A stretch of DNA of 64,000 nucleotides from Pyropia yezoensis (taxonomy: Eukaryota; Rhodophyta; Bangiophyceae; Bangiales; Bangiaceae): contig CM020620.1 of assembly GCA_009829735.1 (NCBI GenBank), positions 11,901,420 through 11,965,419 of the forward strand. The letters run 5' to 3'. The stretch's first letter is position 1. Every line of letters starts with the position of its first letter. Of this stretch, positions 831 to 64,000 are shown in pieces. The translations under genes were made by a program, and so were the position numbers. The notes under the pieces are model-generated. The model was given only the letters and a program-made list of their open reading frames with translations, had not been told where the DNA came from and made no database searches.

Positions 831-1087
831 GGCGGTCAGCATGGATAATGGAGGGTGGATCATGCACACGATGGGACGCGGCGGCAGGAAGGGGAATGGC
901 CGGCTTTGGGGAGGGCGGGAGGGGGGGGACGGAGGGAGGATGAGAACGATGGAGATGGGCGCGGAGGGGAGACGGGGGGTTGCGGCAGAAGATAATTGGG
1001 TGGAGGAGAAGCGCTGGCGGGATGAATTGGGCGGGGGGGGCGCGGGGGGGGCGCGGAGAAAGAGAACGCCAACGTTGATATGTGTGG

Positions 1088-1094
1088 TATAAAA
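1088..1094 (+). promoter_or_regulatory. TATA box in LTR, oriented toward the antisense ORF
   Basis: TATAAAA lies 5 bp inside the LTR edge on the plus strand. Read this way, a start about 30 bp downstream would give a transcript crossing the rest of the LTR and entering the antisense frame. The motif is identical in the other two LTRs (55949-55955 and, inverted, 53219-53225). The antisense-promoter role is inferred. Read in the pol direction it sits at the extreme end of the LTR, where it could only act outward. Confidence 0.5.
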
Positions 1095-1364
1095 CTCGAT
1101 CCTCTCAGACACGTGTCAATATCCCTCGGGGGAAAGGGACAGGTAACGCAGAAAGGGGAACTACGAGAATGGTATGCCTGTTGCCTCACGTGCCTGCTTG
1201 CAGGGCAAACAGATACGCACGGTAGTGCACACGGGGAAGAGGAAAGCAAACGCGCAGTTGTCTTTTTCCCTGAGGGCGCGGGCCGAGGGCGCCTCGCTGT
1301 CCCTCTTAACGTGCATCTGGGGGAACCCCGGCACGTTGGCCCGGTAGCCCCCCCATAACCCCGA

Positions 1365-1406
1365 GTGGCCCCGACCCGAGTCTAACCTCGTCAGGTCGGG
1401 GGCCAC
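1365..1406. other. GC-rich hairpin inside the LTR
   Basis: GTGGCCCCGACC and GGTCGGGGGCCAC are inverted repeats about 17 nt apart (12-bp stem, one bulged G). The hairpin is conserved in the LTRs at 52659 and 55944. On the plus strand it is followed by an A/T/C-rich segment of CTCA-type repeats. It could act in termination, polyadenylation or packaging; the sequence does not show which. Confidence 0.5.
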
Positions 1407-1646
1407 TATCACTACTAATTCTATTCCCACTCACTAATCTCACACTCAAATTCTCTCAAATCAAGTCCCTCACAAATATGCAAAAACACATCAGAAATCC
1501 CTCTCTCGCGTGTGGATAGCGTAGTCCACCGCATCCCAGTGCCGGGCACGGGCCACGGCCGCCAACCATCGCCACACGGCGGGCGTGTTCTGGCACCTGG
1601 TGCCCTCTGGTTGCAGTCCCGGGTCGGCGCCAAGTCGGGGCCAGGG

Positions 1647-3956
1647 ATGCTACATAGCTCCCTCCCTAGTCCGGCACGTCCTCGGGCCGAACCAGGTGCC
1701 ACCGTGCACAGCCTCGAGCACGTCCACACCGGTGCCGAGGTCGAGCGTCTTCACCCGGTCACGATCACCTGCCCCGATTCTGCCCCCCCCCCTCCGCTCC
1801 TTCACCTTGGCCCTCTCGTTCCCCGGAGTCTGGACGGTGTGTCCAGTTCCGAGATCCAAGCTGGGCCCGTGGTTCCGGCGGCGAGTGTTGCGGAGGAGAA
1901 CTCGGGTCGTCGTGCCCCTCTCCTGCCTCCGGTTCCTCGGATGTCGGTGCCGGCGCCGGTCGCCACGGCGGGGACGGATCGAGTTCCCCCGGCTTCCGCG
2001 ATGCACCCGGTCGAGGCCCCCCCGGAGGGTCTCCCGGAGATACTTCTTGGGCAGGACCCTCTGGCGGCCCGGCGTTACTCCACGGTGGTCGGCAACGCCG
2101 GCGCGGCCCAGTGCCAGCAGGATTGCATGGACCTCTGGCGCAAGGAACTCCAGCGCGGGGTCTTGACCGAGATGGACAAGGCACGTCTTCATACGGCGGA
2201 CCAGATGCGCCTGGCACAAGACCGCTCCCAGAGCTTCTCGGGTTCCTCTTGGGCTGCTCGTCTGGAGGATCTCCCCTTCGCGCTGGTACTGGATCTACCC
2301 TTGACCGAGCGTCGCGTGTCCGCGTCCGTTCTCCGGTGGCCGGAGGAGGAAGGGTACGTCCACCGGGCGCTCAAGGTCTGGGACGAGGCGCTCAAGGGGT
2401 CGGGAAGCTTGAACTGCGACCCCCGTCCGAGCATGGTCGCTCTGGAGCCGCCTTTCTTGACCCGGAAATACTCCAAGTTGTCGCCGGCACGGGAGCAGGG
2501 TGAGCGACGCGGGCGTCAGCGTGACTTCATCGTGAGCTGCAATCATCAGGAGTTCTGGAAGCTGGACAAGGCCAACCGGGCGGCATACTACCCCAAGGTC
2601 ATCCCGCAGCAGCAGGAAGTCGAGATCCCGGTCGGGTTTGCTCCTTCCAGCATCCCTTGCACCTGGTACTTCTTGGACGCCTTGACTCAGGCGTCGATCA
2701 AGGGCTTCTTCCATTCAATCCCGTACATGATGTACACGTCCGAGATGACAGTCTTGGCGGCCAACCACTGGCTTCACGAGGTCTTGGTGTCCAACCGGCT
2801 TTGGTTTCTCCCCGACCTCCTGATGGTCTGGATTGTCGACAAGTTGACCGTCGACTTCCTGTGCAGCCAGGACGAGGAGTACAAGGAGCTCTTCCAGGCG
2901 ATGATCGACTTCCGGCGTCTGGTACCGGTGCATGACCGGAACTTCTTGAACGTGATTGCCGACCAGAACCGCCCGCGTCGGGATGGCTTCGGTTGGGCGC
3001 AGGTGGTCTACCAGTCTTCTCCGGCTAAGGTGCAGCTGGCGACGCCGCTTCCGGCGTGGCCGCAGCTAGGTAGCTTTCCTGCTCCGGCCGCCCTTGATCT
3101 TCTGCCAGTTGGGCCGCCGGTACAGGAGTCGGGATGGGTCGCGGCGGTCGGTCGGGCGTCTGCGGCGGCTCCGCTTCCTCCTGTTGCCCCTGTCGCCCCG
3201 GTTGCCTCGCCTGAACCGTCACCGGCACGTCCGCGCCCTGTTCCGGCTGTGCCAGTACTTCAAGCTCCTCCGGCACCGCGCTTGTCTGCGGCGAGTCTGG
3301 GAGTGGCCGTGCGGTCGCCGATTACTCCGGCCGCTCTACCCCGGACGCCTTCTTCCAACGCCGGCGGCGCTGTGCCTCCGCTGGAGTTGGGTACTCCGGT
3401 CTCGGGGGCCGTTGTGGACCGTCCGGTAGTGTCATCCTCGGGCCGGTTCGAGATTCCGGCGCCGACTCTGCGCCTCACCCGCTTCCGGGTGCCTGACTGG
3501 TACCTGAACCAAGGTGGTCCAACATGCGACCAGTACGACGTCGGCATGATTGAAGACCAGCTGGGTCGTCTTCCGGTGCAGGTTGAAGGCGTCGGGTCCT
3601 CTCTGGTGCTGGGTACTTACGCCAGCGTCTTGAACGACGTGGTCGACCGGGTGTTTGCTTGCGCGGACAGCGGCCAGATGTCGAACAACCCGGTGGTTGG
3701 CGAACTTCTGACGACTTTGACGCGGCATGGCTTGGCCCAGCAGTGGTCAGAGACCTTCACGGGCTTCCAGCGGCGCCGACGGACATATCTGGATGAGCGG
3801 GAGCCACCGGCAACTACTGGTACTACTCCGATGGCGTCATACCGGGATGCGCCGCGTCCACCGCACTACGTCATCCCGTCTTCCTCCGGTTCCCGTCGTA
3901 CCGCGGAGGCAACGCCGGAGGACACTCCCGCGGCTCAGCGTCCGCGCCGGGAGTAG
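1647..3956 (+). CDS. Antisense ORF of chromovirus (copy A), unknown protein
   Basis: This intact 769-codon frame opposes pol and lies between the 3' LTR and the chromodomain tail. It ends 145 bp before the stop of the convergent pol frame. The ATG at 1647 lies in the last bases of the LTR. Conserved coding probably starts later, near SSSEIQAGP (about 1842): upstream of that point the two copies differ by compensating indels. Copy A has GTG where copy C has an ATG. Layout: a Pro/Ala-rich start, a long block rich in Trp, Phe, Tyr and Leu (for example VWIVDKLTVDF), a Pro/Ala linker, a second conserved block around RFRVPDWYLNQ, and a basic tail. There is no signal peptide, transmembrane span or recognised motif. 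It is not gag, pol or a typical env by inspection. Function unknown. Confidence 0.75.
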   Translation: MLHSSLPSPARPRAEPGATVHSLEHVHTGAEVERLHPVTITCPDSAPPPPLLHLGPLVPRSLDGVSSSEIQAGPVVPAASVAEENSGRRAPLLPPVPRMSVPAPVATAGTDRVPPASAMHPVEAPPEGLPEILLGQDPLAARRYSTVVGNAGAAQCQQDCMDLWRKELQRGVLTEMDKARLHTADQMRLAQDRSQSFSGSSWAARLEDLPFALVLDLPLTERRVSASVLRWPEEEGYVHRALKVWDEALKGSGSLNCDPRPSMVALEPPFLTRKYSKLSPAREQGERRGRQRDFIVSCNHQEFWKLDKANRAAYYPKVIPQQQEVEIPVGFAPSSIPCTWYFLDALTQASIKGFFHSIPYMMYTSEMTVLAANHWLHEVLVSNRLWFLPDLLMVWIVDKLTVDFLCSQDEEYKELFQAMIDFRRLVPVHDRNFLNVIADQNRPRRDGFGWAQVVYQSSPAKVQLATPLPAWPQLGSFPAPAALDLLPVGPPVQESGWVAAVGRASAAAPLPPVAPVAPVASPEPSPARPRPVPAVPVLQAPPAPRLSAASLGVAVRSPITPAALPRTPSSNAGGAVPPLELGTPVSGAVVDRPVVSSSGRFEIPAPTLRLTRFRVPDWYLNQGGPTCDQYDVGMIEDQLGRLPVQVEGVGSSLVLGTYASVLNDVVDRVFACADSGQMSNNPVVGELLTTLTRHGLAQQWSETFTGFQRRRRTYLDEREPPATTGTTPMASYRDAPRPPHYVIPSSSGSRRTAEATPEDTPAAQRPRRE
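1655..1669 (-). other. Polypurine tract of chromovirus copy A
   Basis: In pol orientation the 15 bases directly before the 3' LTR read CTAGGGAGGGAGCTA. This is a purine-rich tract of the kind used to prime plus-strand DNA synthesis. The identical tract adjoins the LTR of copy C at 56516-56530. Confidence 0.75.
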
Positions 3957-4101
3957 TAGTTGGATGCAAGGAGGGTGAGGGTCTTGGGAGAAGCGAGGAG
4001 GGAAGAGGCGGAGAGAAGGGTTGCTCGAGGGGTGCTTGTTTTCCTTGATTGTTCCATGCTTGCGTTGCGTGTTTATCCTTGATATACCCGTTCCCTTCTT
4101 C

Positions 4102-4270
4102 TCAATCCTCTTGTTCCGCATCCGTTGCGGGTGAGCTCGTCTCGTCCCGAGGGTCTTGGTTGGCCCCGTCCTCTGGTCCTCCTCCGTGTCCGACTCCAGA
4201 ATCTTGCCGGCTCTGGCCACTGGAGTGCCCTCGATCCCGTTCCGTCGCGTGTAGGCACAGACGTCCGCGA
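4102..4270 (-). pseudogene. pol 3' fragment (chromodomain tail), copy A
   Basis: The residues after the gap edge match copy C: ADVCAYTRRNGIEGTPVARA, then an acidic tail. A one-base deletion shifts the frame in the acidic tail relative to copy C; the downstream frame still ends in DAEQED and a stop. The chromodomain core itself lies in or beyond the gap. Confidence 0.8.
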
Positions 4271-22100: not shown

Positions 22101-23447
22101 CGGCGGCGGCCAGGCCCGGCGCCGCGCGGCGGAGGCCCCGGCGGGAGAGGAAGGCGACCAGCGCCGCTGCGTCGGGGGGGGGCGGGGGGGGGGCGGGGCG
22201 CCGCCGCCGAGGCGGCCGCTTGCCGCCGCCGCCGCCGCCGCCGCCGCGGCCACCTTTCGCGGGGGCCCCGCCGCCGCCGCCGCCGTCGGTCACCGACGCC
22301 ACTGCCGCCGCTACTGCCGATGCGACCGCCGCGGCCGCGTCGGCGGGCAGGACCGGCTGCAGCCGATGCGCGCGGCGGACGCGCGGTGTCGCCGAGGCGC
22401 ACACCGGTAGGGGGGGTGGCGGCGGCGGCCGCGGCGGCGGCGGCGGCGAGGGCGGCGACGATGTCGACCGCGGTGCCGGCAGCGATGGGGGTGACGGTGG
22501 CGGCGGGGCCAAGGGCAGTGGTAGACGTGGTGGGGGCGACCTGCCGGCGCGCGCAGCACGCGCGCATGGGGAGGCCGCGACGGCCAGAAGTGGAGGGGAC
22601 GGGGATGCCAGCGGGGAAGAGGAGGAGGGCGGCGACGGCGGCGTGGGCGGCGTGGGGGGAGCCGGGGAGGGGGGGGGGTCAGGAGCAATGGGGGGGCGGG
22701 GGTAACGCCCCGCCCGCCGACGCCGCCGCCGCCGTCACCACGGCCACCACCGCCCACGTCGGTGCCGCCACCCGTTGATGGCGGGGACGCTCTCCGTCCA
22801 CACTGTGTACCGCCGCGTGCGTGGGCGGTGGTGACCGTAGCGCCAACAGCGGCGGCGTCACTCCTACAGGCCCAGACGGGGGCGGCGGCGGTGCGGGGGG
22901 TGGCGGCGGTGACAAGGACGGCCGCACGGGGTGGCGGCGGCGGCGGCGGCGGCGGCGGGTGCATGCCGCCGCCACCTTGCCCGACGGCGCCACCGGCAGC
23001 CTCGCCGGCGACCGTTGCAGCAGCATCCTCAGGGCGGGCAAGCGGCGGCGGGCTGCTCCCTTCCCGCAACCCCCAGCCCACGCCACCGCCGCTGCCGTCG
23101 TCGTCGCGGCTGCTGCTGCCGTTGCCGCCGCCGGCCGCGTCGTTGCCGTCGCGGGCGTCGGCGACGGGGGGGGCAGCAGCGGCGGCGGGGGCGGCGACGG
23201 CAGCGGCGGGGCAGGTCACGGTAGCGGCGGCGGAAACAAACGCTGTGGCGGTGGGGGTGGGGGTGGTGGCGGGAGCGCGGGCCACGGCGGCGGCGGCGGC
23301 GGCGGGGGGGGGAGGGGCGGCGGGGGCCGGGGGGGGGGAGCCCCCCGCGTGGCGGTCCAGGCACGCATTGACGTGCGCGGCGGCCTCGCGGGGCGGGTAG
23401 TCGCCGAGGGCGGCGGCACAGAGGGGGCACGCCGCAGAGGCGGTCAT
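19173..23447 (-). CDS. SLX4: SLX4-like structure-specific endonuclease scaffold (UBZ, SIMs, C-terminal domain)
   Basis: The ATG at 23447 opens MTASAACPLCAAALGDY..., a UBZ4/RAD18-type zinc finger (C-x2-C-x14-H-x3-C, residues 7-29). A SAM-like helical segment (DAAALVAFLSRRGLRRAAPG, 22173-21990) follows, then two hydrophobic-acidic motifs like SUMO-interaction motifs, VIVMVD (~21750) and VEIIDIDDSP (~21150). Near the 3' end (~19700-19560), VPGLYDEVLAAETVDVEAVE...WLVRMGVSY matches the pattern of the Slx4 conserved C-terminal domain, which binds SLX1. SLX4 scaffolds nucleases at Holliday junctions and crosslinks. The blocks lie in different frames (2, 0, 1, 2), with switches at long G/C runs such as 21921-21939. 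Undetected introns or homopolymer errors are likely, and the exact stop is uncertain. Linkers are extremely Ala- and Pro-rich. Confidence 0.6.
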
Positions 23448-24665: not shown

Positions 24666-26647
24666 ATGGCGAGCCGCCACCCCCCCCCCCCCCCGGGCCT
24701 CGCCGCCCTCACCACCCTCGTTGATGAGACGCTCGCAACAGAGCGCCGCCGCGCGGCCGCGGCGGCCGCGGCGCTGGCCGCCGCCCGCGAGGAGCTCAGC
24801 ACCTGGTCCCGCCGCCTCAACGCCCTCCGCGCGTACCAGTCGGGGGCGTACACGGGGGGGCCGGGGGGAGAGGGAGGAACAGCGGCGGGGGCTGTGACGA
24901 CGTTGGCGCCGCCACCCCCGCCGCCGCCGCCGCCGCCGCTGCCACCGCCCGTGTCGGTGTTTGCGTCGGCCGCGGCGGCGGCCGCCGCGGTCGTGTCAGC
25001 GTCAGCGCCGCAGCCGCCGCCATCGCCGCCGCCGCCGCCGCCGCCACCGGTGGCCCCTGCGCCACCCCCGCCGTCGCCATCGTCGTCGGTGGTCCCCCCT
25101 CCGCCGCAGCCGCCCGTCCCAGCTGTTGCGGACGCGACGCCCCATTCTGCCCTCGACTGCAGCCCGGCGGCGATGCAGCCCGGCGGCGGCGGCGGCGGCG
25201 ACGGTGGCGGCGGCAGTGGCGGCCGCGACGGTGGCGGCGACGCTGCGGCTGCCACTTCGGCCGCCGCGCCGTCGCCCCGCTCTGCGGTCTCCCCCGTGGC
25301 GGTGGCCCCCCCCAGCGCGTCCTGCTGGGCACCCCCCGAGGCGGTGCCCCCGCGGCGGGGGGGGGGCGCTTCCAGCAGCCACCCCCGCAGCCACCGGTCC
25401 CGGTCACGGTCGCGGGCGCGTGTGCGGTCGCGGTCGCGGTCACGGTCCCAGTCACGGTTGCGCTCGCAGTTGCCTGGCGAGCGGGCGGGCGGTCGGGCGA
25501 CGGACGGCGGCAGTGGCAGCCGCAGCTGTGGCGGTGGGGGTGGCGGCGGGGGTGGCAGAGGAGACGGCGGCAACAGCGGCGGCAGCGGGGGCGGCTGTGG
25601 CGTGCAGCGGCTGTCACGCCGGGACGGCTCGCCGCCATCAACGGGGGCACGCGGCGGCGGTGGGACACCCAACCCCCCCGCGCGGCACCGCCGGCCGCCG
25701 CGGCGGCAGCCGCGGTCGCGCAGCGGCTCGCCGTCGCGGCACCACGCGGAGCACCCCCCCCGCCGCTCCCGCCCGCGGTCCCTGTCGGCGGCGGGCGAGG
25801 CGTCGGCGGCAGGCCGCGCGGGCACGCCCGGCGCGTCGTCGCCGGGAGCCGCGTCGCGGCACACGCCGCCGCCGTCCGCCGAGCGACGGCGGCGGGATGG
25901 CAGCAGCGAGCCTGGCCACCGTCGCCCAGCGGGCGGGGGGGGTGCGGGTGGCTCACCACCCCCACGGCGGGCCGCCGCCTCACCGGGCCGCCGCGGCGTA
26001 GCCGGCCGACCACCGCCAGGCGGTCGGCCTCACGCTCACCGTCGTCGTTGTGCCGAGGCGGTGGTGGTGGCAAGGGTGGCGGAGGCGGCGGCGGCGGCCC
26101 GTCGCGGTCGCCCTCCTCGCCCGTACGGGCGCACCGGATCTGCGACCGCCGGGGCAGCGGCGGTGACGGCGGCGGCAGCGGCGACGGTGGTGGCGGCGGC
26201 GACCGCGGCGACAGCGGCAGCCGCGATGATCGCGACGGCCGTGGTAGCCGCGGCCGCCGCCGCCGCCGCGTGCTGTCGCGGTCGTCGTCGCGGTCGCCGG
26301 GCCGGTCGCGGTCGCAGTCGCCACGGCGGGGCGGCGGCTGGCGGCGGGGCGGTGGCGGGGCCGTCCGCCGGCGGAGCCGGTCGGCCAGCCGCGGGCCCGT
26401 CAAGCGGCCCCGCGGGCCGGTGGGGGCTGGTGCAGGCGCGGGTGCGCCGGGCGGTGGGCCGGCGGGGCGTGGCTACTCGCCGCCGCCGCCGCCGTCTCCC
26501 GGCTGGGGCGCCCCGCCGGCCGCCACCGCTGCTGGCAGCGACGCCGCCGTGCGGGGCGGGTCGCCGGTCTATCGCCGCCCTGGCCGGCACACCTACCGCC
26601 CACGGTCGCGGTCGCCGCCACCACCCGCGGGAGGAGGGCGCTACTGA
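24666..26647 (+). CDS. RS-rich nuclear protein (splicing-factor-like), frame change inside
   Basis: The ATG sits in a strong context (ACACCATGGCG). The N terminus (to about residue 60) is a predicted coiled coil (LTTLVDETLATERRR...AAREELSTWSRRLNALR). Long Pro/Ala and Gly stretches follow, then an RS domain beginning around 25380 (HRSRSRSRARVRSRSRSRSQ). More RS/SP repeats near 26270-26400 and 26590-26640 (YRPRSRSPPPPAGGGRY, then TGA at 26645-26647) lie in another frame, so an intron or homopolymer error falls between about 25900 and 26050. RS domains mediate protein contacts in pre-mRNA splicing and are SR-kinase substrates. No RRM is visible, so it is not a classical SR protein; SRRM-like is possible. 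Low-complexity content limits certainty. Confidence 0.45.
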
Positions 26648-26697
26648 TGGGCGGGCGGCGGGCAGTCGACGTCCGGCGGCGCACATTCCGACTGATA

Positions 26698-26780
26698 TGC
26701 CGGTGGCGGCGGTGGCGGTGGGGGCAGCGGCGACGAACGCCGCCCCCTCTCCCCGAGGCCCCTATATGGTGGTGGCGGAG

Positions 26781-26811
<31 letters not shown>

Positions 26812-27370
26812 GGGCGGCGACGACGGGGGCGGCTACAGCGGCGGCGGCTTCAGCGCCTTTCCCCACCGCGGGGGTCCGCCGCCGCGGCACCCGTCCCCGC
26901 CACGGCACCCGTCCCCGCCGTGGCGGTCATTTTCGCCGCGGCATCCGTCGGCGGCCCGCGGTGGCTCCTGGCCGCGCGGCGGTGGCGGCGGCGGTGGCAG
27001 CGGCGGTGGCGGCGGCGGCGGAGGTGGCGGTCGCGGAGGTGGTGGCGGTGGGGGTGGCGGTGGTGGGGGCGACCGCGGTGGCGGTGGGGGCGGTGGCGGC
27101 CACGGCGCCGCCCCCCCCGACATGTACTACTCTGATCCCCCCCCCGGGGGACGACACAGCGGCGTTTTTCCCGGCCCCGGCCCCCCCCCGCCGGGAGGCG
27201 GCGACGGCAGTTGTGATGGCGGCGGCGGCGGCGGCGGCGGTGGCTATGGTCGCCCCGCCGGCGACGCCCCTGCCGGCGCGTACGACGATGGGCGGGGTGG
27301 CGGCCGCGGCGGGCACCCCGGCGGCTGCCGGTACGGCGGGGGCGGGGGGCCCTACCCGAACCGCTACTAA
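26698..27370 (+). CDS. Gly/Tyr/Arg-rich (RGG-like) protein or C-terminal part of the RS-rich gene
   Basis: In the frame of the upstream RS segment, but after two stops (26645-26647 and about 26693-26695), the sequence reads YAGGGGGG, RPLYGGGG, YSGGGFSAFPHRGG, a duplicated PPRHPSPPRHPSPP, a long poly-Gly run, MYYSDPPPGGRH, YGRPAGDAPAGAYDDGRGGG and ends GGGGGPYPNRY-TAA at 27370. Gly-rich segments with Arg and Tyr are typical of RNA-binding proteins. No ATG begins the block, so it is either a downstream exon of the RS gene or a separate gene with an unseen first exon. Confidence 0.35.
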
Positions 27371-29140
27371 CGCGCCCGCCGCCAGTGGCCGGTGGGGCGG
27401 CGGCGGGGCCGACGCGCGTCCATGGCGGGAGAGGGGGGCGTACGCGTGGCATACGCCCGCCGTGCACCCCCCCTTCCGCCTTGCTCACCTTGCACCCTCG
27501 TTGCGGTGGTCGATGCCGGCCATGCTGCGGTCTCTCGTGGAACGCCTCCGCCGCGGGCGCCACCGCGCCGGCCGTAGTGGCGCCCGCGACGGGCCAATAT
27601 GCAGGTGCGCGCGCACCCTGCTCGCGCGCAAACCTCCTATACGCGCGGGTGCTTCCCCCCCCTCGTTCCGCATCCCCTCCCTTGATGCCTCCCAGCTGCT
27701 GCATAGAATACCCCGTTTGTGTGTGGCACTCGTTTCCCTTCCTCACCTTTTATCCCCTTGCTTCCTTCCACAGTCGTACATTAACCATGGTGGTCACTGT
27801 GGTTTTTTTTCAAGCCCCGTCGGGGGTACCACCTACATGGGCACCGAGCTAGCGCGCTTCTTCAACCACGCCCGCGACACGTGGGCGTCGCGGCAGCCCT
27901 AGAGGAGTGTCCTGCTACGGCGGCGGGGGGGGTGGGGGGGGGTGAGGGGTGGGTTTTGGGGGGTTGAGAGCTGCAGCGCCTCAGCGGTGGCGCGTGCTCC
28001 ACCACGCGCCGACGTACCCGCGGGCATCCCGGCAGTTTTGTGAGAGCCTGGGAGGCCGAAGGGGGGGGCGAGGGGCAGCGCAGGTGGCGCGGCCGGGGTG
28101 GAGACCGGGGCGACTGCCCGGTTACCGCCCGCGGCCACGACGCGGCGGCAGCCGCGACGGTCACTCGGGGCGCGCAGTGGGTGCGCCAACGTATGGGTGA
28201 GGCTAGGAGGCGCGGGGTGGCCAGGTTGTGAGCGCAGTGCCCGCCCGTGGGGAATCTGTGTTGCCCACGGGTGCGGAAAGTGGCTGATGGGGGCGACGAG
28301 ATGGGACAGCGTGCGGGTGTAGGGGGAAGAAGGGAGGGTGCCGGGGAGGGCGGCGGCGCTGGTTTGGGCGGCGCCAGAGGGGAAGGCACGTGCCCGCCGC
28401 GGTGGCGGCGGCGGGGTTGTCGCCTGCCGTCAGCCGGTGCTACGCGGCGGGCGCCAGCCGCGCCACGGAGCAGCCCGCAACCCGCAGCGGCGCTGGCAAA
28501 TCGAAAAAGAGAAAAACAGAGAACAGGTGTCGTGCTTGGATCCACGCACCTTTCCTCCACTTCACTGTCTCAGAAGACTTGTCTCCCTAGCAAACCACAC
28601 TCACCGTCATCGACGCCCTCACTACGGGCTGGCTTGCAAACGGGCGCCCGCACGGCGGGCGTCCACACCCCTGTCCTCCCGTGTTCCCTCAGCTGCTCCG
28701 GCCGGCCATCCCCTTGCCCCCACTAGCCGCAAATCCGCAGCGGCGGCGCCCGCATCCATGTCAATGCCCCCGCGTGCACGTGCGCGTCCAGCGGCTGCAC
28801 GTCAGGCCCGGCGCTCACCCCCAGCACGGGTCGGAGCACTTGTGCCCCGCGCCCATCCGCTTGACGCACGTCGTCGCGCCCCGGCTGTTGCGCGTGCACA
28901 CCTCAACGACAGATACCTCAGCAGGTGCCCAACCGCCGCCCGCCGGGCCGGGGTGGACCCCCTGAACCACATGGCGTCGAGCGCCAGCGCGGTCGCCCCG
29001 CGAGGGACGCGTCGCACCTCCACAAATGACCCTCACCGCCCTTCCCATCCCTGCCCACCGGCTCGTGTGTCGCAGCAGCCCTCGGACGTGCACCAACAGA
29101 CAGCCAAACCCCACCTACACCTCCCCACCCCCTCCCCACC
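27371..29140. other. Intergenic, no confident gene
   Basis: Mixed GC-rich sequence. One minus-strand frame near 28815-29114 contains EVCTRNSRGATTCVKRMGAG and KCSDPCWG, a Cys-rich pattern followed by a possible GTGAGC donor. It could be an exon of a secreted protein gene, but I cannot extend it. Other frames are low-complexity. Confidence 0.4.
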
Positions 29141-52658: not shown

Positions 52659-53230
52659 TGAAGCATCCCTCGCCCTGACTTGGCGTCGACCCGGGATGGC
52701 GACCAACGGACACCAGGTGCCAGGACACGCCCGCCGTGTGGGGATGGTTGGCGGCCGTAGCCCGTACCCGGCACTGGGATGCGGTGGACTACGCTACCCA
52801 CACGTGAGAGAGGGCCTTCTGATGGATTTTCGCATATTTCTGAGGGACTTGATCTGTGAGAATTTGAGTATGAGATTAGTGAGGGAGAACAGAATTAGTA
52901 GTGATAGTGGCCCCCGACCTGACGAGGATAGGCTCGGGTCGGGGCCACTCGGGGGTAGGGGGGGTCTGCCTGGCCAACGTGCCGAGGCTCCCCCAGATGC
53001 ACGTTAAGAGGGACAGCGAGGCGCCCTTGGCCCGCGCCCTCAGGGAAAAAGACAACTGCGCGTTTGCTTTCCTCTTCCCCGTGTGCACTACCGTGCGTAT
53101 CTGTTTGCTCTGCGAGCAGGCACGTGAGGCAACAGGCATACCACTCTCGTAGTCTCCCTTTCTGTGTTACCTGTCCCTTTCCCCCGAGGGATATTGACAC
53201 GTGTCTGAGAGGATCGAGTTTTATACCACA
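52659..53230 (+). mobile_element. Solo LTR of the chromovirus, 572 bp
   Basis: Begins TGAAGCATCC and ends ATACCACA, aligned end to end with the LTRs at 1083-1654 and 55944-56515 and the same length. No internal retrotransposon sequence adjoins it. Five-base flanks are GGATG and TATTT, so no target duplication is visible. It carries the same TATA box at its edge (53219-53225, minus strand) and the same GC hairpin. Confidence 0.9.
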
Positions 53231-55505: not shown

Positions 55506-55943
55506 GGACGTGCGCCAGCCTGGCGGTCAGTCGCCCCCAGATGCAGAGCTGCCCGCGTCGCTGGCGGCAGGAGCGCCGCCCCCCCCTGTCTCCCACCGCT
55601 CATCGGGGCGGCCCCCCCTCCACGCCCCCCCGCGCCCGCGGCGCCCCAACGCCAGCCTCAAATCCTGCCAGCCACCCCTGCCGCAGCCGCGGCGCCCACA
55701 GCGGGGCCCACCGCGGCGCCACGAGCGTCCAACGCGGCAACCTCCCGAGCCACGCCGCCCACTACGCCCGTGCCTACGAGGCCGTTAAGGCGGCTAACGC
55801 CACAGGCGGCTGCATCTTGACCGTTGCTTCAGGCGCCGCCACCGCCGCTGCCGCCACTATCTGCCGCCCCCGCGCCGCCCCTCCCCCACAACGGAGGTGG
55901 CGGTGGCCGCGGGCAGCGGCGGAGTTCAGCACACACAGAGTCC

Positions 55944-56515
55944 TGTGGTATAAAACTCGATCCTCTCAGACACGTGTCAATATCCCTCGGGGGAAAGGGA
56001 CAGGTAACACAGAAAGGGGAACTACGAGAATGGTATGCCTGTTGCCTCACGTGCCTGCTCGCAGAGCAAACAGATACGCACGGTAGTGCACACGGGGAAG
56101 AGGAAAGCAAACTTGCAGTTGTCTTTTTCCTGAGGGCGCGGGCCAAGGGCGCCTCGCTGTCCCTCTTAACGTGCATCTGGGGCAGCCTCGGCACGTTGGC
56201 CAGGTAGCCCCCCCATAACCCCGAGTGGCCCCGACCCGAGTCTAACCTCGTCAGGTCGGGGGCCACTATCACTACTAATTCTATTCCCACTCACTAATCT
56301 CACACTCAAGTTCTCTCAAATCAAGTCCCTCACAAGTATGCAAAAACCCATCAGAAGTCCCTCTCTCACGTGTGGATAGCGTAGTCCGCCGCATCCCAGT
56401 GCCGGGCACGGGCCACGGCCGCCAAATAATCACCACACGGCGGGCGTGTTCTGGCACCTGGTGCCCTCTGGTTGTAGTCCCGGGTCGGCGCCAAGTCGGG
56501 GCCAGGGATGCTACA
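55944..56515 (-). repeat. 3' LTR of chromovirus copy C, 572 bp
   Basis: Nearly identical to LTR A (1083-1654), with scattered substitutions and no net length change. TATAAAA lies at 55949-55955 on the plus strand. The internal side abuts the polypurine tract at 56516-56530. Confidence 0.9.
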
Positions 56516-58817
56516 TAGCTCCCTCCCTAGTCCGGCACGTCCTCGGGCCGAACCAGGTGCCACCGTGCACAGCCTCGAGCACGTCCACACCGGTGCCGAG
56601 GTCGAGCGTCTTCACCCTGGTCACGATCACCTGCTCCGGTTCTCCGCCCCCCTTCTCTCCTTCACCTTGGCCCTCGCGTTCCCCCGGAGTCTGGACGTCA
56701 TGTCCAGTTCCGAGATCCAAGCTGGGCCCGTGGTTCCGGCGGCGAGTGTTGCGGAGGAGAACTCGGGTAGTCGCGCCCCTCTCCTGCCTCCGGTTCCTCG
56801 GGTGTCGATGTCGGCGCCGGTCGCCACGGCGGGGACGGATCGGGTTCCCCCGGCTTCTGTGATGCACCCGGTCGAGACCCCCCCGGTTGGTCTCCCGGAG
56901 ATGCTTCTTGGGCAGGACCCTCTGGCGGGCCGGCGCTACTCCACGGTGGTCGGCAACGCCGGCGCGGCCCAGTGCCAGCAGGATTGCTTGGACCTCTGGC
57001 GCAAGGAACTCCAGCGCGGGGTCCTGACCGAGATGGATAAGGCTCGTCTTCACACGGCGGACCAGATGCGCCTGGCACAAGACCGCTCCCAGAGCTTCTC
57101 GCGTTCCTCTTGGGTTGCTCGTCTTGAGGATCTCCCCTTCGCGCTGGTGCTGGATCTACCCTTGACCGAGCGTCGCGTGTCCGCGTCCGTTCTCCGGTGG
57201 CCGGAGGAGGAAGGTTACGTCCACCGGGCGCTCAAGGTCTGGGACGAGGCGCTCAAGGGGTCGGGGAGCCTGAACTGCGACCCCTGTCCGAGCATGGTCG
57301 CTCTGGAGCCGCCTTTCCTGACCCGGAAGTACTCCAAGTTGTCACCGGCACGGGAGCAAGGCGAGCGACGCGGCCGTCAGCGTGACTTCCTCGTGAGCTG
57401 CAACCATCAGGAGTTCTGGAAGCTGGATAAGGCTAACCGGGCGGCGTACTACCCCAAGGTCATCCCGCAGCAGCAGGAAGTCGAGATCCCGGTCGGGTTT
57501 GGTCCTTCCAGCATCCCCTTCACCTGGTACTTCTTGGACGCCTTGACTCAGGCGTCGATCAAGGGCTTCTTCCACTCGATCCCGTACATGATGTACACGT
57601 CCGAGATGACAGTCTTGGCGGCCAACCACTGGCTTCACGAGGTCTTGGTGTCCAACCGGCTTTGGTTTCTCCCTGACCTCCTGATGGTCTGGATTGTCGA
57701 CAAGTTGACCGTCGACTTCCTGTGCAACCAGGACGAAGAGTACAAGGGGCTCTTCCAGGCGATGATTGATTTCCGGCGTCTGGTGCCGGTGCATGACCGG
57801 AACTTCTTGAACGCGATTGCCGACCAGAACCGCCCGCGTCGGGATGGCTTCGGTTGGGCGCAGGTGGTCTACCAGTCTTCTCCGGCCAAGGTGCAGCTGG
57901 CGACGCCGCTTCCGGCGTGGCCGCAGCTCGGTAGCTTTCCTGCCCCGGCCGCCCTTGATCTTCTGCCAGTTGGGCCGCCGGTCCAGGAGTCGGGATGGGC
58001 CGCGGCGGTCGGTCAGGCGTCTGCGGCGGCTCCGCTTCCTCCTGTTGCACCTGTCGCCCCGGTGGCCTCGCCTGAACCGTCGCTGGCGCGTTCACGCCCT
58101 GTTCCGGCTGTGCCCGTACTTCAAGCTCCTCCGGCACCGCGCCTGTCTGCGGCGAGTCTGGGGGTGACCGTGCGGTCGCCTACCACTCCGGCCGCTCCGC
58201 CTCGGACGCCTTCTTCCAACGCCGGCGGCGCTGTGCCTCCGCTGGAGTTGGGTACTCCGGTTTCGGGGGCCGTTGTGGACCGTCCGGTGGTGTCATCCTC
58301 GGGGCGGTTCGAGATTCCGGCGCCGACTCTGCGCCTTACCCGCTTCCGGGTGCCTGACTGGTACCTGAACCAAGGTGGCCCGACATGCGACCAGTACGAC
58401 GTCGGTATGATTGAAGACCAGCTGGGTCGTCTTCCGGTGCAGGTTGAGGGCGTCGGGTCTTCCCTGGTGCTGGGCACTTACGCCAGCGTCTTGAACTACG
58501 TGGTCGACCGGGTGCTTGCTTGCGCGGACAGCGGCCAGATGTCGAACAGCCCGGTGGTTGGCGAACTTCTGGCGACCTTGACGCGGCATGGCTTGGCCCA
58601 GCAGTGGTCAGAAACCTTCACTGGCTTCCAGGGGCGCCGACGGGCATATCTGGATGAGCGGGAGCCCCCGGCAACTACCGGTACTACTCCGATGGCGTCA
58701 TACCGGGATGCACCGCGTCCACCGCACTACGTCATCCCGTCTTCCTCCGGTTCCCGTCGTGCCGCGGAGGCAGCGCTGGAGGACACTCCCGCGGCTCAGC
58801 GTCCGCGCCGGGAGTAG
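56508..58817 (+). CDS. Antisense ORF of chromovirus (copy C), unknown protein
   Basis: A 769-codon frame from the same LTR-edge ATG as in copy A and with the same stop. The likelier start is the ATG at 56700 (MSSSEIQAGP, 705 codons), because the preceding 100 bp differ from copy A by frame-shifting, mutually compensating indels. Over those 705 codons there is no net length difference from copy A. Many differences are third-position (for example GACAAG/GATAAG). Conserved blocks include DLWRKELQRGVLTEMDKARL, SCNHQEFWKLDKANRAAYYP, IPYMMYTSEMTVLAANHWLH, VWIVDKLTVDFLC and, after a Pro/Ala linker, RFRVPDWYLNQGGPTCDQYD. There is no membrane span, signal peptide or known motif. Convergent with pol, whose stop lies 145 bp away. 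Probably transcribed from the LTR TATA box at 55949. Confidence 0.8.
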   Translation: MLHSSLPSPARPRAEPGATVHSLEHVHTGAEVERLHPGHDHLLRFSAPLLSFTLALAFPRSLDVMSSSEIQAGPVVPAASVAEENSGSRAPLLPPVPRVSMSAPVATAGTDRVPPASVMHPVETPPVGLPEMLLGQDPLAGRRYSTVVGNAGAAQCQQDCLDLWRKELQRGVLTEMDKARLHTADQMRLAQDRSQSFSRSSWVARLEDLPFALVLDLPLTERRVSASVLRWPEEEGYVHRALKVWDEALKGSGSLNCDPCPSMVALEPPFLTRKYSKLSPAREQGERRGRQRDFLVSCNHQEFWKLDKANRAAYYPKVIPQQQEVEIPVGFGPSSIPFTWYFLDALTQASIKGFFHSIPYMMYTSEMTVLAANHWLHEVLVSNRLWFLPDLLMVWIVDKLTVDFLCNQDEEYKGLFQAMIDFRRLVPVHDRNFLNAIADQNRPRRDGFGWAQVVYQSSPAKVQLATPLPAWPQLGSFPAPAALDLLPVGPPVQESGWAAAVGQASAAAPLPPVAPVAPVASPEPSLARSRPVPAVPVLQAPPAPRLSAASLGVTVRSPTTPAAPPRTPSSNAGGAVPPLELGTPVSGAVVDRPVVSSSGRFEIPAPTLRLTRFRVPDWYLNQGGPTCDQYDVGMIEDQLGRLPVQVEGVGSSLVLGTYASVLNYVVDRVLACADSGQMSNSPVVGELLATLTRHGLAQQWSETFTGFQGRRRAYLDEREPPATTGTTPMASYRDAPRPPHYVIPSSSGSRRAAEAALEDTPAAQRPRRE
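56516..56530 (-). other. Polypurine tract of chromovirus copy C
   Basis: In pol orientation CTAGGGAGGGAGCTA directly precedes the 3' LTR, identical to copy A at 1655-1669. Confidence 0.75.
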
Positions 58818-58962
58818 TAATTGGAGGCAAGGAGGGTGAGGGTCTTGGGAGAAGCGAGGAGGGAAGAGGCGGAGAGAAGGGTTGCCCGAGCGGGTGCTTG
58901 TTTTCCTTGATTGTTCCATGCTTGTATTGCGTGTTCTCCTGGATATACCCGTTCCCTTCTTC

Positions 58963-59241
58963 TCAATCCTCTTGTTCCGCATCCGTTGCGGATGAACTCG
59001 GCTCGTCCCGAGGGTCTTGGTTGGCCCCATCCTCTTGGTCCTCCTCCGAGTCCGACTCCAGAATCTTGCCGGCTCTGGCCACTGGAGTGCCCTCTATCCC
59101 GTTCCGTCGCGTGTAGGCACAGACATCCGCGATGGGTAGCCGGTTTGAGGGTTCCCAGGTATCATCTGCCGGGTTAAAACCGAACCAGCGTACTCGCAGG
59201 TACAGGCGTCCGTCTCTCCAGGCATGGTCCACAAACTTGAC
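58963..59241 (-). CDS. pol: chromodomain segment (after in-frame TAA)
   Basis: In frame with integrase but separated by TAA at 59242-59244. It reads VKFVDHAWRDGRLYLRVRWF GFNPADDTWEPSNRL, a chromodomain with aromatic cage-type positions (Trp in WF and TWEP). A tail GTPVARAGKILESDSEEDQE and a TGA at 58963 follow. Chromodomains on integrases guide insertion to chromatin marks. In this copy it would be made only by readthrough. Confidence 0.85.
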   Translation of the reverse strand, partial: VKFVDHAWRDGRLYLRVRWFGFNPADDTWEPSNRLPIADVCAYTRRNGIEGTPVARAGKILESDSEEDQEDGANQDPRDEPSSSATDAEQED

Positions 59242-60981
59242 TTAGACATATTCCCGACCTTCTTCTTGGGATAGCCAGGGTACTGCGGCCCGCTTGCGCC
59301 GGGTCAAGTCCCGTTGGCTTGGCGGTGGAGCTCGTGTGACATGGTCGCTGCTCACGCGGTACGGGGAGCCATCCACGTCTAGAAGAAAGGTCCAACCGTC
59401 CGTATTCAGGATCTCATAAGGTCCATCCGTCTTCGAGTCCAGCTTCCCCCGGGTCTTGCTATGGTTGTCCACAAAAACCCAGTCGCCACCACCCAGTTCC
59501 TTGTTCTTTTCCCGAACGCCCTTGTCATAGCCCCGCTTGTATCGCTTCTGGGTCTTCGAGATTGACTCCTTGACTCTTGGGAGCAGGAGCTTCAGTTGTT
59601 CCAGGAACTCATCCTTTGCCTTGGGACCTGACTTCAGTGCAGGCTGGAGACCGTCTGGTATTCTTTCCAGGGAGAAGTTGGTCAGCCGCCTTGGGGTGAC
59701 AAAGTCGAGTGGAGCGACCCCCGTTGTCCGGTGAACTCGGGAGTTGTAGGCTAGAGTGAGGACAGCCAGGAGCTCGTCCCAGTCTTCTTGGTGCTCCTCC
59801 ACGTAGTGCCGTAGCATGTCTACTAGGGTCCGGTTGAATCGTTTCACCTGGCCGTTCGTTTGAGGGTGGTACGTCGTAGTGTACAAGTTCTTGATGCCCA
59901 TCAGGTCACAGACTCCTTGGAAGAACAGGGATGCAAACTGGGGACCGTTGTCGGTTAAGACGGAGTCTGGAGGGCCGTAGGCAGCTATCCAGTACTCGCA
60001 GAAGGCTGACGTGACATCCAGAGCCGTGCTGGTCCTCAGCGGGATTGCTTGAGTGAACTTGGAGAACCGGTCACAAATGATGAGCAGGTATATGTTGCCA
60101 CTGGATGTTTCAGGTAGGGGCCCCAGGATGTCCATGCTTAAGCTTGCAAAGGGCTCCGCCGCCGGGAATAGGCGTAGCTTAGAAGTCTTCTTCCTCTGGG
60201 ACAACCGGTTCCTTGCACACGAAACACAAGCCTCCAGGTACTTATGGACATCACTGGCCATGGTTTCCCAGTAATAGTGTCGTCTCATGGAAGCATACAT
60301 CCGATTGATACCAGGATGTCCGGCCTGGGGAGACGAGTGCTCCAGGCGTAGGATGTCAGCTCGTAGGCCCCGGGGTACGTAGACTTGAGTGGCCCCATCG
60401 AAGGGTGACACCCGTACTAGGAGTCCGTCCGTAGACTCGGAGAAACGACTGTTCCGGTTCAGGTCCATTTGGTGGCGAAGCTCCAAGCATTGAGGATCCG
60501 TCAGTTGTGCCTCCAGCATCCGGTGAATGGTCACCGGTTGATGAGCTTCAGGTGTCTCATACAGGGGAGCGTGCCAGCCACGTCCGACATTCGGGAGGAT
60601 GAAGCAAGGTATTTCCTCCGGGATAGGACCGGTGTCGGCTGCAGGAGTCTCCAGCCGGGACATGGTGTCGGCGCAGTGGTGCTCCCTCCCTGCTCTGGTG
60701 CACACCTTGTACTTGAACTCCGAAAGGCGTAGGCGCCACCGGGCGACCCTTCCTTGACTGCTGTCCATACATAGCAGCCACCTTAGGCTGGCGTGGTCCG
60801 TCCGGATGAGGAACTCTTGTCCTTCAAGATATGGCCGTAACAGGAAGCAAGCCCAGACGACTGCCAAGCACTCGCGCTCGGTCGTGGAATAGTTCTTCTC
60901 AGCTGGAGTCAAGACGCGACTGTAGTAGCCTATCGGGAGAAAGTGCCCATCAGGTTGCTGCTGGAGTAGTGAGCACCCCAC
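59242..60981 (-). CDS. pol: RNase H, integrase and GPY/F module (between in-frame stops)
   Basis: Continues the reverse transcriptase frame after TAA at 60982-60984. The RNase H remainder shows VGCSLLQQQPDGHFLPIGYY and TDHASLRWLL. Integrase has the zinc-binding HHCC pattern (HSSPQAGHPG...CVSCARNR), the first Asp in SMDILGP and the second in LTDNGPQF. At the position of the catalytic Glu, 35 residues after the second Asp, it has Lys (QVKRFN, codon AAA at 59842-59844). GPYEIL marks the GPY/F module. With Lys in the DDE triad and two flanking stops, this copy's integrase should be inactive. Confidence 0.9.
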   Translation of the reverse strand: MGCSLLQQQPDGHFLPIGYYSRVLTPAEKNYSTTERECLAVVWACFLLRPYLEGQEFLIRTDHASLRWLLCMDSSQGRVARWRLRLSEFKYKVCTRAGREHHCADTMSRLETPAADTGPIPEEIPCFILPNVGRGWHAPLYETPEAHQPVTIHRMLEAQLTDPQCLELRHQMDLNRNSRFSESTDGLLVRVSPFDGATQVYVPRGLRADILRLEHSSPQAGHPGINRMYASMRRHYYWETMASDVHKYLEACVSCARNRLSQRKKTSKLRLFPAAEPFASLSMDILGPLPETSSGNIYLLIICDRFSKFTQAIPLRTSTALDVTSAFCEYWIAAYGPPDSVLTDNGPQFASLFFQGVCDLMGIKNLYTTTYHPQTNGQVKRFNRTLVDMLRHYVEEHQEDWDELLAVLTLAYNSRVHRTTGVAPLDFVTPRRLTNFSLERIPDGLQPALKSGPKAKDEFLEQLKLLLPRVKESISKTQKRYKRGYDKGVREKNKELGGGDWVFVDNHSKTRGKLDSKTDGPYEILNTDGWTFLLDVDGSPYRVSSDHVTRAPPPSQRDLTRRKRAAVPWLSQEEGREYV

Positions 60982-63074
60982 TTAGACGCCACAGGCATCC
61001 GTCTCCAGGACAAACTGGCCCTCCCGCTTGGGTAACGCCAGTGCTGGAGTGGTGGTCAGGCGCTTCTTGAGCTCTTCGAGGGCCCCGGTCTGCTTCTCGT
61101 CGAACACCGGGAGTTGTGCGGGAAGCTTCTTGCTGGTCAGCTTGGTCAGTGGCCGGGCAATCAGAGCATAGTCCCGTACGAACCGGCGATAGACGTTGCA
61201 CATACCCAGGAAGCTCTTGAGTTCCGTCTGGGTTTTGGGTTGCCGTGCATGCCGGAGGGCCTTGATGTTCTTCTCATTGACTCGGAGCTCCCCCGGACTC
61301 AGCACATGCCCCAGATACTCCACCTCAGTCTCAAACAGGTGGCACTTCTCGGCCTTGAGGGTAACTCCAGCCTTGGACAGGAGGGCCAGGACCTCCCGAA
61401 GGTGCTCCAGGTGTTCCGCTGGGGTCTTGGAGAAAACGATATTGTCGTCCAGGTAGACCAAACATGTTCTCCACCTTAGCCCGGACAGGATGATGTCGAT
61501 GGCTCCTTGGAAGGTGGCCGGAGCATTGGTGAGACCAAAAGGAAGACGCTTGCACCGGAATAGTCCCAGGTGGCACGTGAAGGTGGTCTTGTCCTTGTCC
61601 TCGTCAGCCAGAGGGATCTGCCAGTAACCGGCATTACAATCCAGCGTCGAGAAGAGGGTGGCATCACCAAGAAAGTCGAGGCAATCATCCATCCGGAATA
61701 TCGGGTATACGTCCTTGACTGTCATCTCGTTCAGGCGCCGGTAGTCAACGCAGAAACGGAAGTGACCGCCGGTTTTCGGGACGACTACCACCGGGAAAGC
61801 CCACTCGCCATCAGACGGCTCGATAACATCCATCTTGAGCATCTTGTTAACCTGCTTCTCAATCTCATCCCGGCGATGAGGTCCAGCCCGATATGGTTGC
61901 ATGTGCACTGGCTTAGCTTCCGGCTTGAGTTGAATCCGGTGTAGAGTGGCGTCCATCTTGCCCAGCTCTCCCGACCACAGGTGCCGATATTCCTGGAGAA
62001 GCTTCTCCAGTGCCTCCTTCAAGTCGGGAGGGACATTTTCTTGCTTGACCTTCGGCATCCCGGGTGGTGCTTGTTCGGGTTTCGGAGTAGCGCTGCCAGC
62101 CTGCTCTTGTTTCGGAGGTACGTCTAAGGCCGTCAAGTTGGATGCCAGTTCTTGTTGCAGGTTCAGGAGGTCATCCTTGCTCATAGCACGGGCGGATCCC
62201 CGGTAAGGCTCTGCTGTACCAACTCGGGTGCCCTTGGCGAGGGTTATTGGCTTCCGGCTCACGTTGACGATTAGCACCGGGAACGGGGTGTGCCTTTCTA
62301 CGTTCTTGTGATGTCCGTGGGCCAAGTATAACCGGTGCTTCGCCAGAAATTCCTTACGTCCGTAGATCAGGCATTGACCTGCAATCCGGGTCGTTACTTG
62401 AACCTTGGTCTCCGAGCGAGGAGGTAGGAGCACCGGTTTGAAGAGAGTCAAGGTAGAGGGTGGGATGCGTTCCCCCTTGATCTTGGCTACACGAACCTTG
62501 GCGTCCAGATGCTCCAATACCGGTGACACAAACCCATGGTTGAACTGGACCTTCCCTTCTCCGGGTAGGATGCTCTTGACATGCTGCTTCTGGAAGTCCC
62601 AGCCTAGGATGAGGGGGACTGATAGGGTCTTGACTACTAGAAAGGGAAAAAGCATTGGTTCATTGTTGACATAGATGGCGACAGGAAGACGGCCAAGCGG
62701 TCGTAGGGTTTGACCCGAAGCGTCGACGATGTGGGTCCGGGTAGGCGCTCTCCAGGCATGTCGACGCCAGCCCGGAGGTAACAGGTTCTCAGTGATGACG
62801 CTTGGTCCGGCTCCCGTGTCAACCACCGGCGTAACAGCTTGGGGGAGGCTATCCCCCACACGCATACGAGCATTAATCTTGAGGTTTTCTTTACGCAGGA
62901 CGAGCAATGTCCCCTTGAACAAACAGGGTGTCCAGGCGGCTACCGGTTGAGCAGGTAACCGCCGTCCTTTCTCCCGGCACGCAAGGGGAGAACAGGTAGA
63001 AGTACCCTGCCGTCGGAGATTCGGGAAGACACTTGGGGAGAGCGCCTGCCCTACTCGTTTCCCGGGTCCGAGGA
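60982..63074 (-). CDS. pol: protease, reverse transcriptase, start of RNase H
   Basis: The frame is open from just upstream of the gag stop and is entered by -1 frameshifting at 63057-63063. Protease active site VVDTGAGPS (~62810). Reverse transcriptase shows FRFCVDYRRLNEMT, FSTLDCNAGYWQIPL, LPFGLTNAPATFQ and the catalytic YLDDN (~61450). The RNase H start FVLETDACGV runs into TAA at 60982-60984, inside the RNase H active-site region. Lengths and motif spacing match intact Ty3/gypsy pol, so this is a single nonsense change rather than truncation. Confidence 0.92.
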
Positions 63075-64000
63075 GTCCTTAGAGGTTTGGGTCTCCAGGT
63101 CAAAGTCCGTAGGAGCTTCCCTTGCCAGAGCCTCCGTGATGCTCTGTAAGGTTGCCACTCGGATTGCGTGTACCTGTGCCTGGTCCATCTTGGAGGGTGC
63201 TCGCCGGTCAGCCCAGTTGACCGCCTTTGCAAACACCAGTCCTTGACGCTTGAGTTTCTCCTGGAGGTCCTTGGGAATGGTCGGGCACTGGTAGGACATG
63301 TGATCCTCCTTCTGGCACAGCCAACAAGACCGGAACCGCTGGTTCTTGACTTGCTTGGGGGCGACCAGGGATGGTTGTTCCTTGGAAACGAAGCCACCCC
63401 ACTTGTCCCCTGACCCCATGGGTGAGGCCTCGCCAACTGCGAGTACCGGTACAGGGCTATCACCTCCCTTATACTTGTCGGGTCCGGGTCGAACTCGCGA
63501 CAACGGCTTGGGAGTTGATACCATGGGAGCTTGGAGGGCCCTAGCTTGCCGGTACTTGCCCTGGGTGTAGGCCATGAACTGCTGGAAGGTATGTTCTTGA
63601 TGTTCCTGGTTGTAGTTCTCCGCATCCACTTGAAGATATTCAGGAAGCCCTTCCGAGAAGATCATCTTGAGCCTGTCCTCAGGGTAAACGTTGCCACAAG
63701 CATCGCTCATCTCCCGGACACGACGGGCGAACGCCTCTGGAGTCTCTTGTCTTTCCATGGTTGCCCGGTTCAGCCTGCCGACTGCTTTACGCAGAGAGTC
63801 CGCGTCAGCGTAGTTGGACAGGAGCCAGTTGACCGCCTCCGGATAACTCGCGACGGAACGTCCGACAATGTGTCCGGCAGAGTCTGGTAGAACCTGTGCA
63901 AACCGCTGTTCCGCTTCTCCGGTCATGAAGTTAACCAGGAGGTAGAGAGCCTTGCCCTCGGACACATCGTTGTCATTGCATGCCTTGACAAACCGGCGCA
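63051..64000 (-). CDS. gag, 5' end beyond window
   Basis: The frame is open from the window edge (RRFVKACNDNDVSEGKALYL...) to TAG at 63051. It includes a capsid-like helical block (LLVNFMTGEAEQRFAQ, RQETPEAFARRVREMSD, MIFSEGLPEYLQ) typical of Ty3/gypsy Gag, and one CCHC zinc knuckle, CWLCQKEDHMSYQC (~63290-63330). Gag packages the RNA and builds the particle. Its start lies to the right of this window. Confidence 0.9.
   Translation of the reverse strand, partial: RRFVKACNDNDVSEGKALYLLVNFMTGEAEQRFAQVLPDSAGHIVGRSVASYPEAVNWLLSNYADADSLRKAVGRLNRATMERQETPEAFARRVREMSDACGNVYPEDRLKMIFSEGLPEYLQVDAENYNQEHQEHTFQQFMAYTQGKYRQARALQAPMVSTPKPLSRVRPGPDKYKGGDSPVPVLAVGEASPMGSGDKWGGFVSKEQPSLVAPKQVKNQRFRSCWLCQKEDHMSYQCPTIPKDLQEKLKRQGLVFAKAVNWADRRAPSKMDQAQVHAIRVATLQSITEALAREAPTDFDLETQTSKDSSDPGNE
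63057..63063 (-). promoter_or_regulatory. -1 ribosomal frameshift site GGGAAAC
   Basis: In gag phase the bases read CCG GGA AAC GAG TAG, so G-GGA-AAC is a canonical X-XXY-YYZ heptamer three bases before the codon preceding the gag stop. A -1 slip (GGG AAA CGA GTA GGG) enters exactly the frame that stays open through protease and reverse transcriptase. I did not identify a convincing downstream pseudoknot. Confidence 0.8.

Follow-up and report, generated by a model that had tools for sequence, protein, structure and literature searches.

The window, the whole stretch of 64,000 nucleotides of Pyropia yezoensis DNA analysed here, contains two copies of one LTR retrotransposon, copy A near its left end and copy C at its right end. 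Between the end of pol and the 3' LTR of copy C, a frame of 705 codons lies on the opposite strand; we refer to this antisense gene as aORF. The features of both copies are listed below, in window coordinates unless stated otherwise.

1083..1654, minus strand: 3' LTR of copy A; right end placed by alignment
1839..3956, plus strand: aORF of copy A, open, with GTG replacing the start ATG; 95.3% identity to copy C
55944..56515, minus strand: 3' LTR of copy C, 572 bp, by sequence comparison
56516..56530, minus strand: purine-rich tract (PPT) adjoining the 3' LTR, by sequence
56516..56699, plus strand: leader of 184 nt from the LTR to the aORF start, presumed 5' untranslated or promoter region of an antisense transcript
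56700..58817, plus strand: aORF, antisense gene of 705 codons, by open frame, dN/dS and copy comparison
58818..58962, no strand: gap of 145 bp separating the convergent stops of aORF and pol
58963..59241, minus strand: end of pol, past an in-frame stop of copy C; chromodomain scored in the open copy L013
59242..60981, minus strand: pol, RNase H and integrase, by ORF list and Pfam
60982..62922, minus strand: pol, protease and reverse transcriptase (RT), ending at an in-frame stop in copy C
63051..63998, minus strand: gag, with a zinc knuckle match under Pfam's cut-off
C3:11966443-11967013, beyond the window: 5' LTR of copy C, 571 bp

The two LTRs of copy C are 97.7% identical, have TG...CA termini and are each flanked externally by an AGTCC target duplication, and a stretch resembling a primer binding site (PBS), with TGG as its first bases, lies four bases past the 5' LTR. 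The pol domains follow the order protease, RT, RNase H and integrase, as in a Ty3/gypsy chromovirus (Pfam). C-terminal of the integrase in L013, a chromodomain (PF00385) was matched with E=6.6e-5 and 23.2 bits, slightly below the cut-off of 25.1. Judged by its domains, LTRs, target duplication, PBS and PPT, copy C is classified as a minus-strand Ty3/gypsy chromovirus; the LTR ends, the 5-bp target duplication, the PBS and the PPT were established on this copy only. Its sense pol is broken, as a preliminary description of this DNA had stated, with in-frame stops at 60984 and 59244 and a Lys in the integrase motif. Copy A, as far as it is readable, is a 3' fragment consisting of LTR, aORF and the end of pol (alignment to copy C, window 1083-4270). 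Repeats are reported to make up 48% of the P. yezoensis genome, LTR retrotransposons foremost (PMC7423979); the assembly measures 107.5 Mb. A tRNA scan of the whole window and an Rfam scan of 55900-64000 returned no matches.

The preliminary description had reported two antisense frames in the window, free of net indels from SSSEIQAGP to the stop and with many differences that look synonymous. Both are present in the ORF list, and the two window copies align across 2118 nt with zero indels, all indels between the two 2310-nt frames lying upstream of codon 1 of the conserved part. The aORFs of copies A and C differ at 101 nucleotides (23, 16 and 62 at codon positions 1, 2 and 3); among the 97 differing codons, 61 are synonymous and 36 nonsynonymous. 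The start, on the other hand, had been placed at 56508, an ATG that sits in the final bases of the 3' LTR (55944-56515). The conserved start is the ATG at 56700, 184 nt inward of the LTR, which is an ATG in 45 of 46 close copies. Among the 12 copies tabled, M1 is present in nine and M68 is an ATG in all, and the latter could be the true start of the product; copy A, which is outside this table, has neither, with Ile at the second position. The start position is uncertain, since residues 1-45 evolve loosely between distant subfamilies.

To 46 full-length, indel-free copies taken mostly from best-match lists (excluding the truncated L002 and L042, a repeat of L007), all six frames were applied. 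The aORF frame is open in 41, a share that may be lower genome-wide given this sampling; each of the five other frames is open in none, with a median of 8-19 stops per frame. Stops in most copies, which the preliminary description had named as evidence against the gene, were not what we saw: in this sample, drawn mostly from best-match lists, five of 46 carry them (L004, L006, L044, L056 and L058). Open length alone is weak evidence for aORF because the window is GC-rich (57-81%) and holds frames of 720-1078 aa elsewhere. These frames, and the 98-99% identity of many copies, would suit a long chance frame in GC-rich DNA whose apparent conservation is due to the youth of the copies. A second-order Markov model of the aORF stretch, however, gave at most 595 open codons over six frames in 2000 runs, none of which reached 700.

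Following the dN/dS check suggested in the preliminary description, we found values that are not near 1: against copy C, aORF gives 0.17-0.36 in all 11 copies compared, at 76-99% identity and dS up to 0.58 (L013 0.17, L042 0.25, L049 0.30, L056 0.25, L058 0.23, L051 0.30, L053 0.24, L057 0.28, L050 0.36, L052 0.26 and L054 0.28). In the same comparisons, four of the five other frames give 0.81-2.64, and the minus frame that shares the third positions of aORF gives 0.22-0.47, above the aORF frame every time. A maximum-likelihood codon model of 13 copies yielded a dN/dS of 0.262 for aORF and 0.215 for the integrase control, the aORF likelihood (lnL -8559.8) being 231 log units better than that at dN/dS=1 (-8790.8; kappa was likewise set in the neutral run, to 2.5). 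Integrase compared with copy C in nine copies falls at 0.11-0.17 in seven; the exceptions are L042 (0.28, a very close copy) and L050 (0.46, with seven stops). Binned by pair, aORF lies at 0.20-0.27 versus 0.12-0.22 for integrase and is thus somewhat looser. The diverged subfamilies entering these comparisons were found by patterns that forbid one main-family synonymous codon while keeping a 9-10 residue peptide; such patterns catch only copies keeping that peptide and place no condition on the remaining codons of the 705. Other diverged copies were found by protein similarity, and both ways of finding favour conserved copies a little.

Among 12 bootstrapped aORF pairs, no upper limit exceeds 0.43 in the ten that include copy C or L013, and the pair L053/L050 gives 0.39 (0.32-0.48). 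For L051/L053, a decayed pair of old copies from one subfamily, aORF dN/dS is 0.79 (0.60-1.16), as expected for copies that decay without selection. Between two subfamilies (30 A-like and 7 C-like copies, with the truncated L002 and 9 multi-allelic columns excluded), 36 fixed differences are synonymous and 16 nonsynonymous, versus 44 synonymous and 60 other (57 + 3 stops) among singletons (Fisher P=0.002). Third positions hold 52 of the 104 singletons too, so the third-position excess is partly mutational, and it is the contrast between fixed differences and singletons, not the raw excess, that counts as evidence. Low dN/dS at such synonymous divergence, the Markov runs and this contrast all argue against a chance frame, as does the finding of low dN/dS between diverged subfamilies yet not between decayed copies, the very pattern that should speak against it; we consider such an origin exceedingly improbable.

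The synonymous divergence of aORF tracks that of integrase (r=0.98 for 17 copies and 136 pairs; none of 2000 Mantel permutations reaches it), which indicates that aORF travelled and was inherited with the element. At up to 3 mismatches, tags for aORF, RT and integrase occur 406, 523 and 508 times in the genome. Of 97 integrase places (a subset of 100 listed; C1, up to 36.43 Mb), 55 have the exact aORF 24-mer as far away as expected and on the other strand, and some of the other 42 bear variant aORFs (e.g. L049 and L056); some elements may be without the gene. No integrase is present in the 3.7 kb of two frameshifted loci, L052 and L054. With dN/dS, the open-frame comparison and co-inheritance with integrase in agreement, the central claim of the preliminary description, that a chromovirus carries a conserved protein-coding gene on its antisense strand, holds: we state with high confidence that aORF is a genuine gene, the third in a red-algal chromovirus of high copy number, and that purifying selection has kept it.

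In two distant copies, L053 and L051, the LTRs share 92% identity with those of copy C (L063 and L064, upstream of L053 and L051, together with L065 and L066, compared with 55944-56515), against a dS of 0.44-0.55 for aORF and integrase in the same copies; such LTRs seem to be either under strong constraint or shared among subfamilies by recombination. At L055 (C2:16967207-16975254), four pattern matches recur with a period of 2673 bp. The stretch read there, 1.5 units, contains an LTR together with portions of aORF and pol, and repeats with 99.8% identity across 1328 bp; on these features we classify the locus as a young local tandem array.

The aORF product has a mass of 76.8 kDa and a pI of 6.6. 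The dN/dS of its parts, for near and far comparisons, divides it as follows.

aa 1-45: 0.37 near, 0.71 far; 1.14 in the pool of bootstrapped pairs
aa 46-95: 0.46 near, 0.46 far
aa 96-395, conserved core: 0.15 near, 0.19 far
aa 396-540, Pro/Ala-rich linker: 0.36 near, 0.31 far
aa 541-655, second conserved block: 0.16 near, 0.18 far
beyond aa 655, looser tail: 0.33 near, 0.34 far

The first 45 codons (56700-56834) combine loose amino acids between distant subfamilies with a dS that is nevertheless low, as if cis signals overlapped them. A simple motif scan of the copy C product found no nuclear signal; an RRRR run is present near residue 650 in copy A and in the database protein P0001.

The preliminary description had recognised no homology for this protein and had proposed a profile search, and in the searches made no homologue outside the repeat family was found. 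The product matches nothing in Pfam, PHROGs, NCBIfam or PADLOC; for 10 aORF sequences, Pfam returned 0 families up to E=10, and thus neither PF04195 (TRP28) nor a plant mobile domain. The protein search covered 5.8 billion proteins, detecting relatives that share 5-residue words and scoring the best 8000 candidates. It initially gave a single match, P0001, at 98%; a ten-sequence profile gave 14 matches and a broader profile 15, the lowest listed identity being 56% (P0003). The profile matches lie on contigs no longer than 4.2 kb or are gene models that lack contig data. A search of the window's genome with P0003 found 673 candidates, of which 124 were scored and gave at least 248 matches. P0002, P0004, P0005, P0007 and P0008 are EukProt models with contig_*_g* names and represent pieces of aORF. 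They may derive from the P. yezoensis draft, which was annotated by AUGUSTUS with cDNA and EST hints (PMC3594237), and would even then be no sure sign of transcription. Weak PDB matches were read as chance, to mitochondrial Rieske protein over the Pro/Ala linker (profile, best E=0.022) and one to a defence-associated reverse transcriptase (single sequence, E=0.24); the broader profile gave zero PDB matches up to E=10. Viral and prokaryote contigs, searched with six short peptide patterns each, and plasmids yielded no confirmed relative, records of the element's own genome possibly lying outside these sets.

These searches bear on where the gene came from. An inverted copy of gag or pol was considered and dropped, the best match (E=0.042, to the RT half) being a short low-complexity stretch. 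This absence of beyond-chance similarity to gag or pol, with no other origin found, would fit a cellular gene taken up by the element in reverse, as the preliminary description had suggested. The capture of a host gene has gained no support so far: no homologue outside the repeat family and no host copy emerged within the reach of 5-residue words and the best 8000 candidates (the presence of LTR or pol was checked for part of the genome matches), and the two loci lacking a nearby integrase are frameshifted. We regard it as quite unlikely. A movement factor, also suggested there, or an env-like protein letting the element leave the cell would suit the location between pol and the 3' LTR. Against this, the gene is antisense to gag-pol, its product matches no family, and a crude hydropathy scan found no clear membrane span (best 19-residue value 1.54, with the top windows internal), making such a role highly improbable.

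As aORF faces pol, it is unreadable as a normal frame from genomic RNA, and an antisense transcript is needed. It would be translated from a separate transcript that begins within the 3' LTR or shortly inward of it and runs toward pol, for which a promoter in the 3' LTR or in the 184-nt leader would be the simplest source. The convergent layout could yield overlapping transcripts, and the stretch might then act as antisense RNA, through dsRNA and self-limitation of the element, rather than through a protein, an idea raised for other elements in PMC7264820. Antisense RNA alone leaves the codon-periodic constraint and the 41 open frames of 46 unexplained; we judge it very unlikely as the sole function, and it could act in addition.

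The protein itself would work in the nucleus as a trans-acting factor, its target being DNA, RNA or chromatin of the element that encodes it. Our leading guess, held tentatively, is that it may be a nuclear regulator or anti-silencing factor; this draws on the comparable gene of maize Grande, which has its own promoter and antisense transcription and a nuclear product (PMC7264820). Such roles have been put forward for the Grande and Retand antisense ORFs (PMC7264820, PMC11963269). The main rival casts the protein as a helper of the particle or of integration, partnering Gag or integrase structurally instead of regulating expression or silencing. The lock-step of aORF with integrase would agree with this, whereas the lack of beyond-chance similarity to gag or pol does not favour it, and we consider it possible but somewhat doubtful. 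A further-reaching form of the regulator hypothesis is unlikely, if conceivable: that aORF is the first member of a new family of proteins with no relatives in the searched databases, encodes a trans-acting anti-silencing or transcription factor that helped the element to hundreds of copies in a 107-Mb genome, and is an HBZ-like gene of independent origin outside land plants, fungi and animals.

Antisense additional ORFs between pol and the 3' LTR (aORF-3R) have been described for maize Grande (gene23), rice RIRE2, Silene Retand, bean PvRetro13 and Botrytis Boty (PMC7264820). Like these, the P. yezoensis aORF is a long ORF antisense to pol and located between pol and the 3' LTR. The aORF-3R are reported in most copies, conserved and with products lacking clear homology (PMC7264820); aORF is likewise conserved roughly as other proteins of its element (0.26 versus 0.22 for integrase). 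It differs from what the consulted sections of PMC7264820 describe in its red-algal host, in an element with a chromodomain and in the codon-level selection test over diverged subfamilies, and its product matches no Pfam family, hence neither of the domains named there (Transposase 28 and SMC). TRP28 (PF04195) of the Retand lineage has the same place and strand (PMC11963269), whereas Pfam gave nothing for aORF up to E=10; that source calls Retand a non-chromovirus and describes TRP28 as confined to flowering plants. The plant mobile domain proteins MAIN and MAIL1 offer a functional lead, their domain being linked to Ty3/gypsy elements and host versions acting in silencing (PMC5418596, PMC7156037); compared by sequence alone, aORF differs in having no such match in Pfam. 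HBZ of HTLV-1 is likewise the product of an antisense protein gene in an LTR-bearing retroelement, by analogy only (PMC11963269). In the open-access literature we found no published account of a red-algal or chromoviral antisense gene, and the word 'antisense' occurs 0 times in PMC6317226 and PMC5348765. Antisense ORFs at this position are a known kind, described from plants and a fungus; what differs here is the red-algal host, the chromovirus and the orphan protein, along with the direct test of selection.

Most reports of antisense genes in LTR elements concern flowering plants and some retroviruses, and they often leave open whether the protein matters. Several diverged subfamilies within one genome allow selection on the aORF protein to be measured directly, and this selection is strong; an orphan antisense gene in a red-algal chromovirus suggests that antisense accessory genes may have been invented more than once. 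Annotators should also be aware that pieces of aORF already stand as gene models (EukProt).

Elsewhere in the window, a further LTR in reverse orientation (52674-53230) is 92.3% identical to that of copy C, with no internal region recognised, and appears to be a solo LTR or a fragment. Positions 1-761 hold a tandem repeat with a 192-bp unit in about four copies. The low-complexity frames at 24666-27902 and 19817-22705 (1078 and 962 aa) are probably by-products of GC-rich DNA. Finally, ORFs on the minus strand at 12564-14517 contain a TGPPGTGKT stretch and presumably resemble an SF1 helicase gene.
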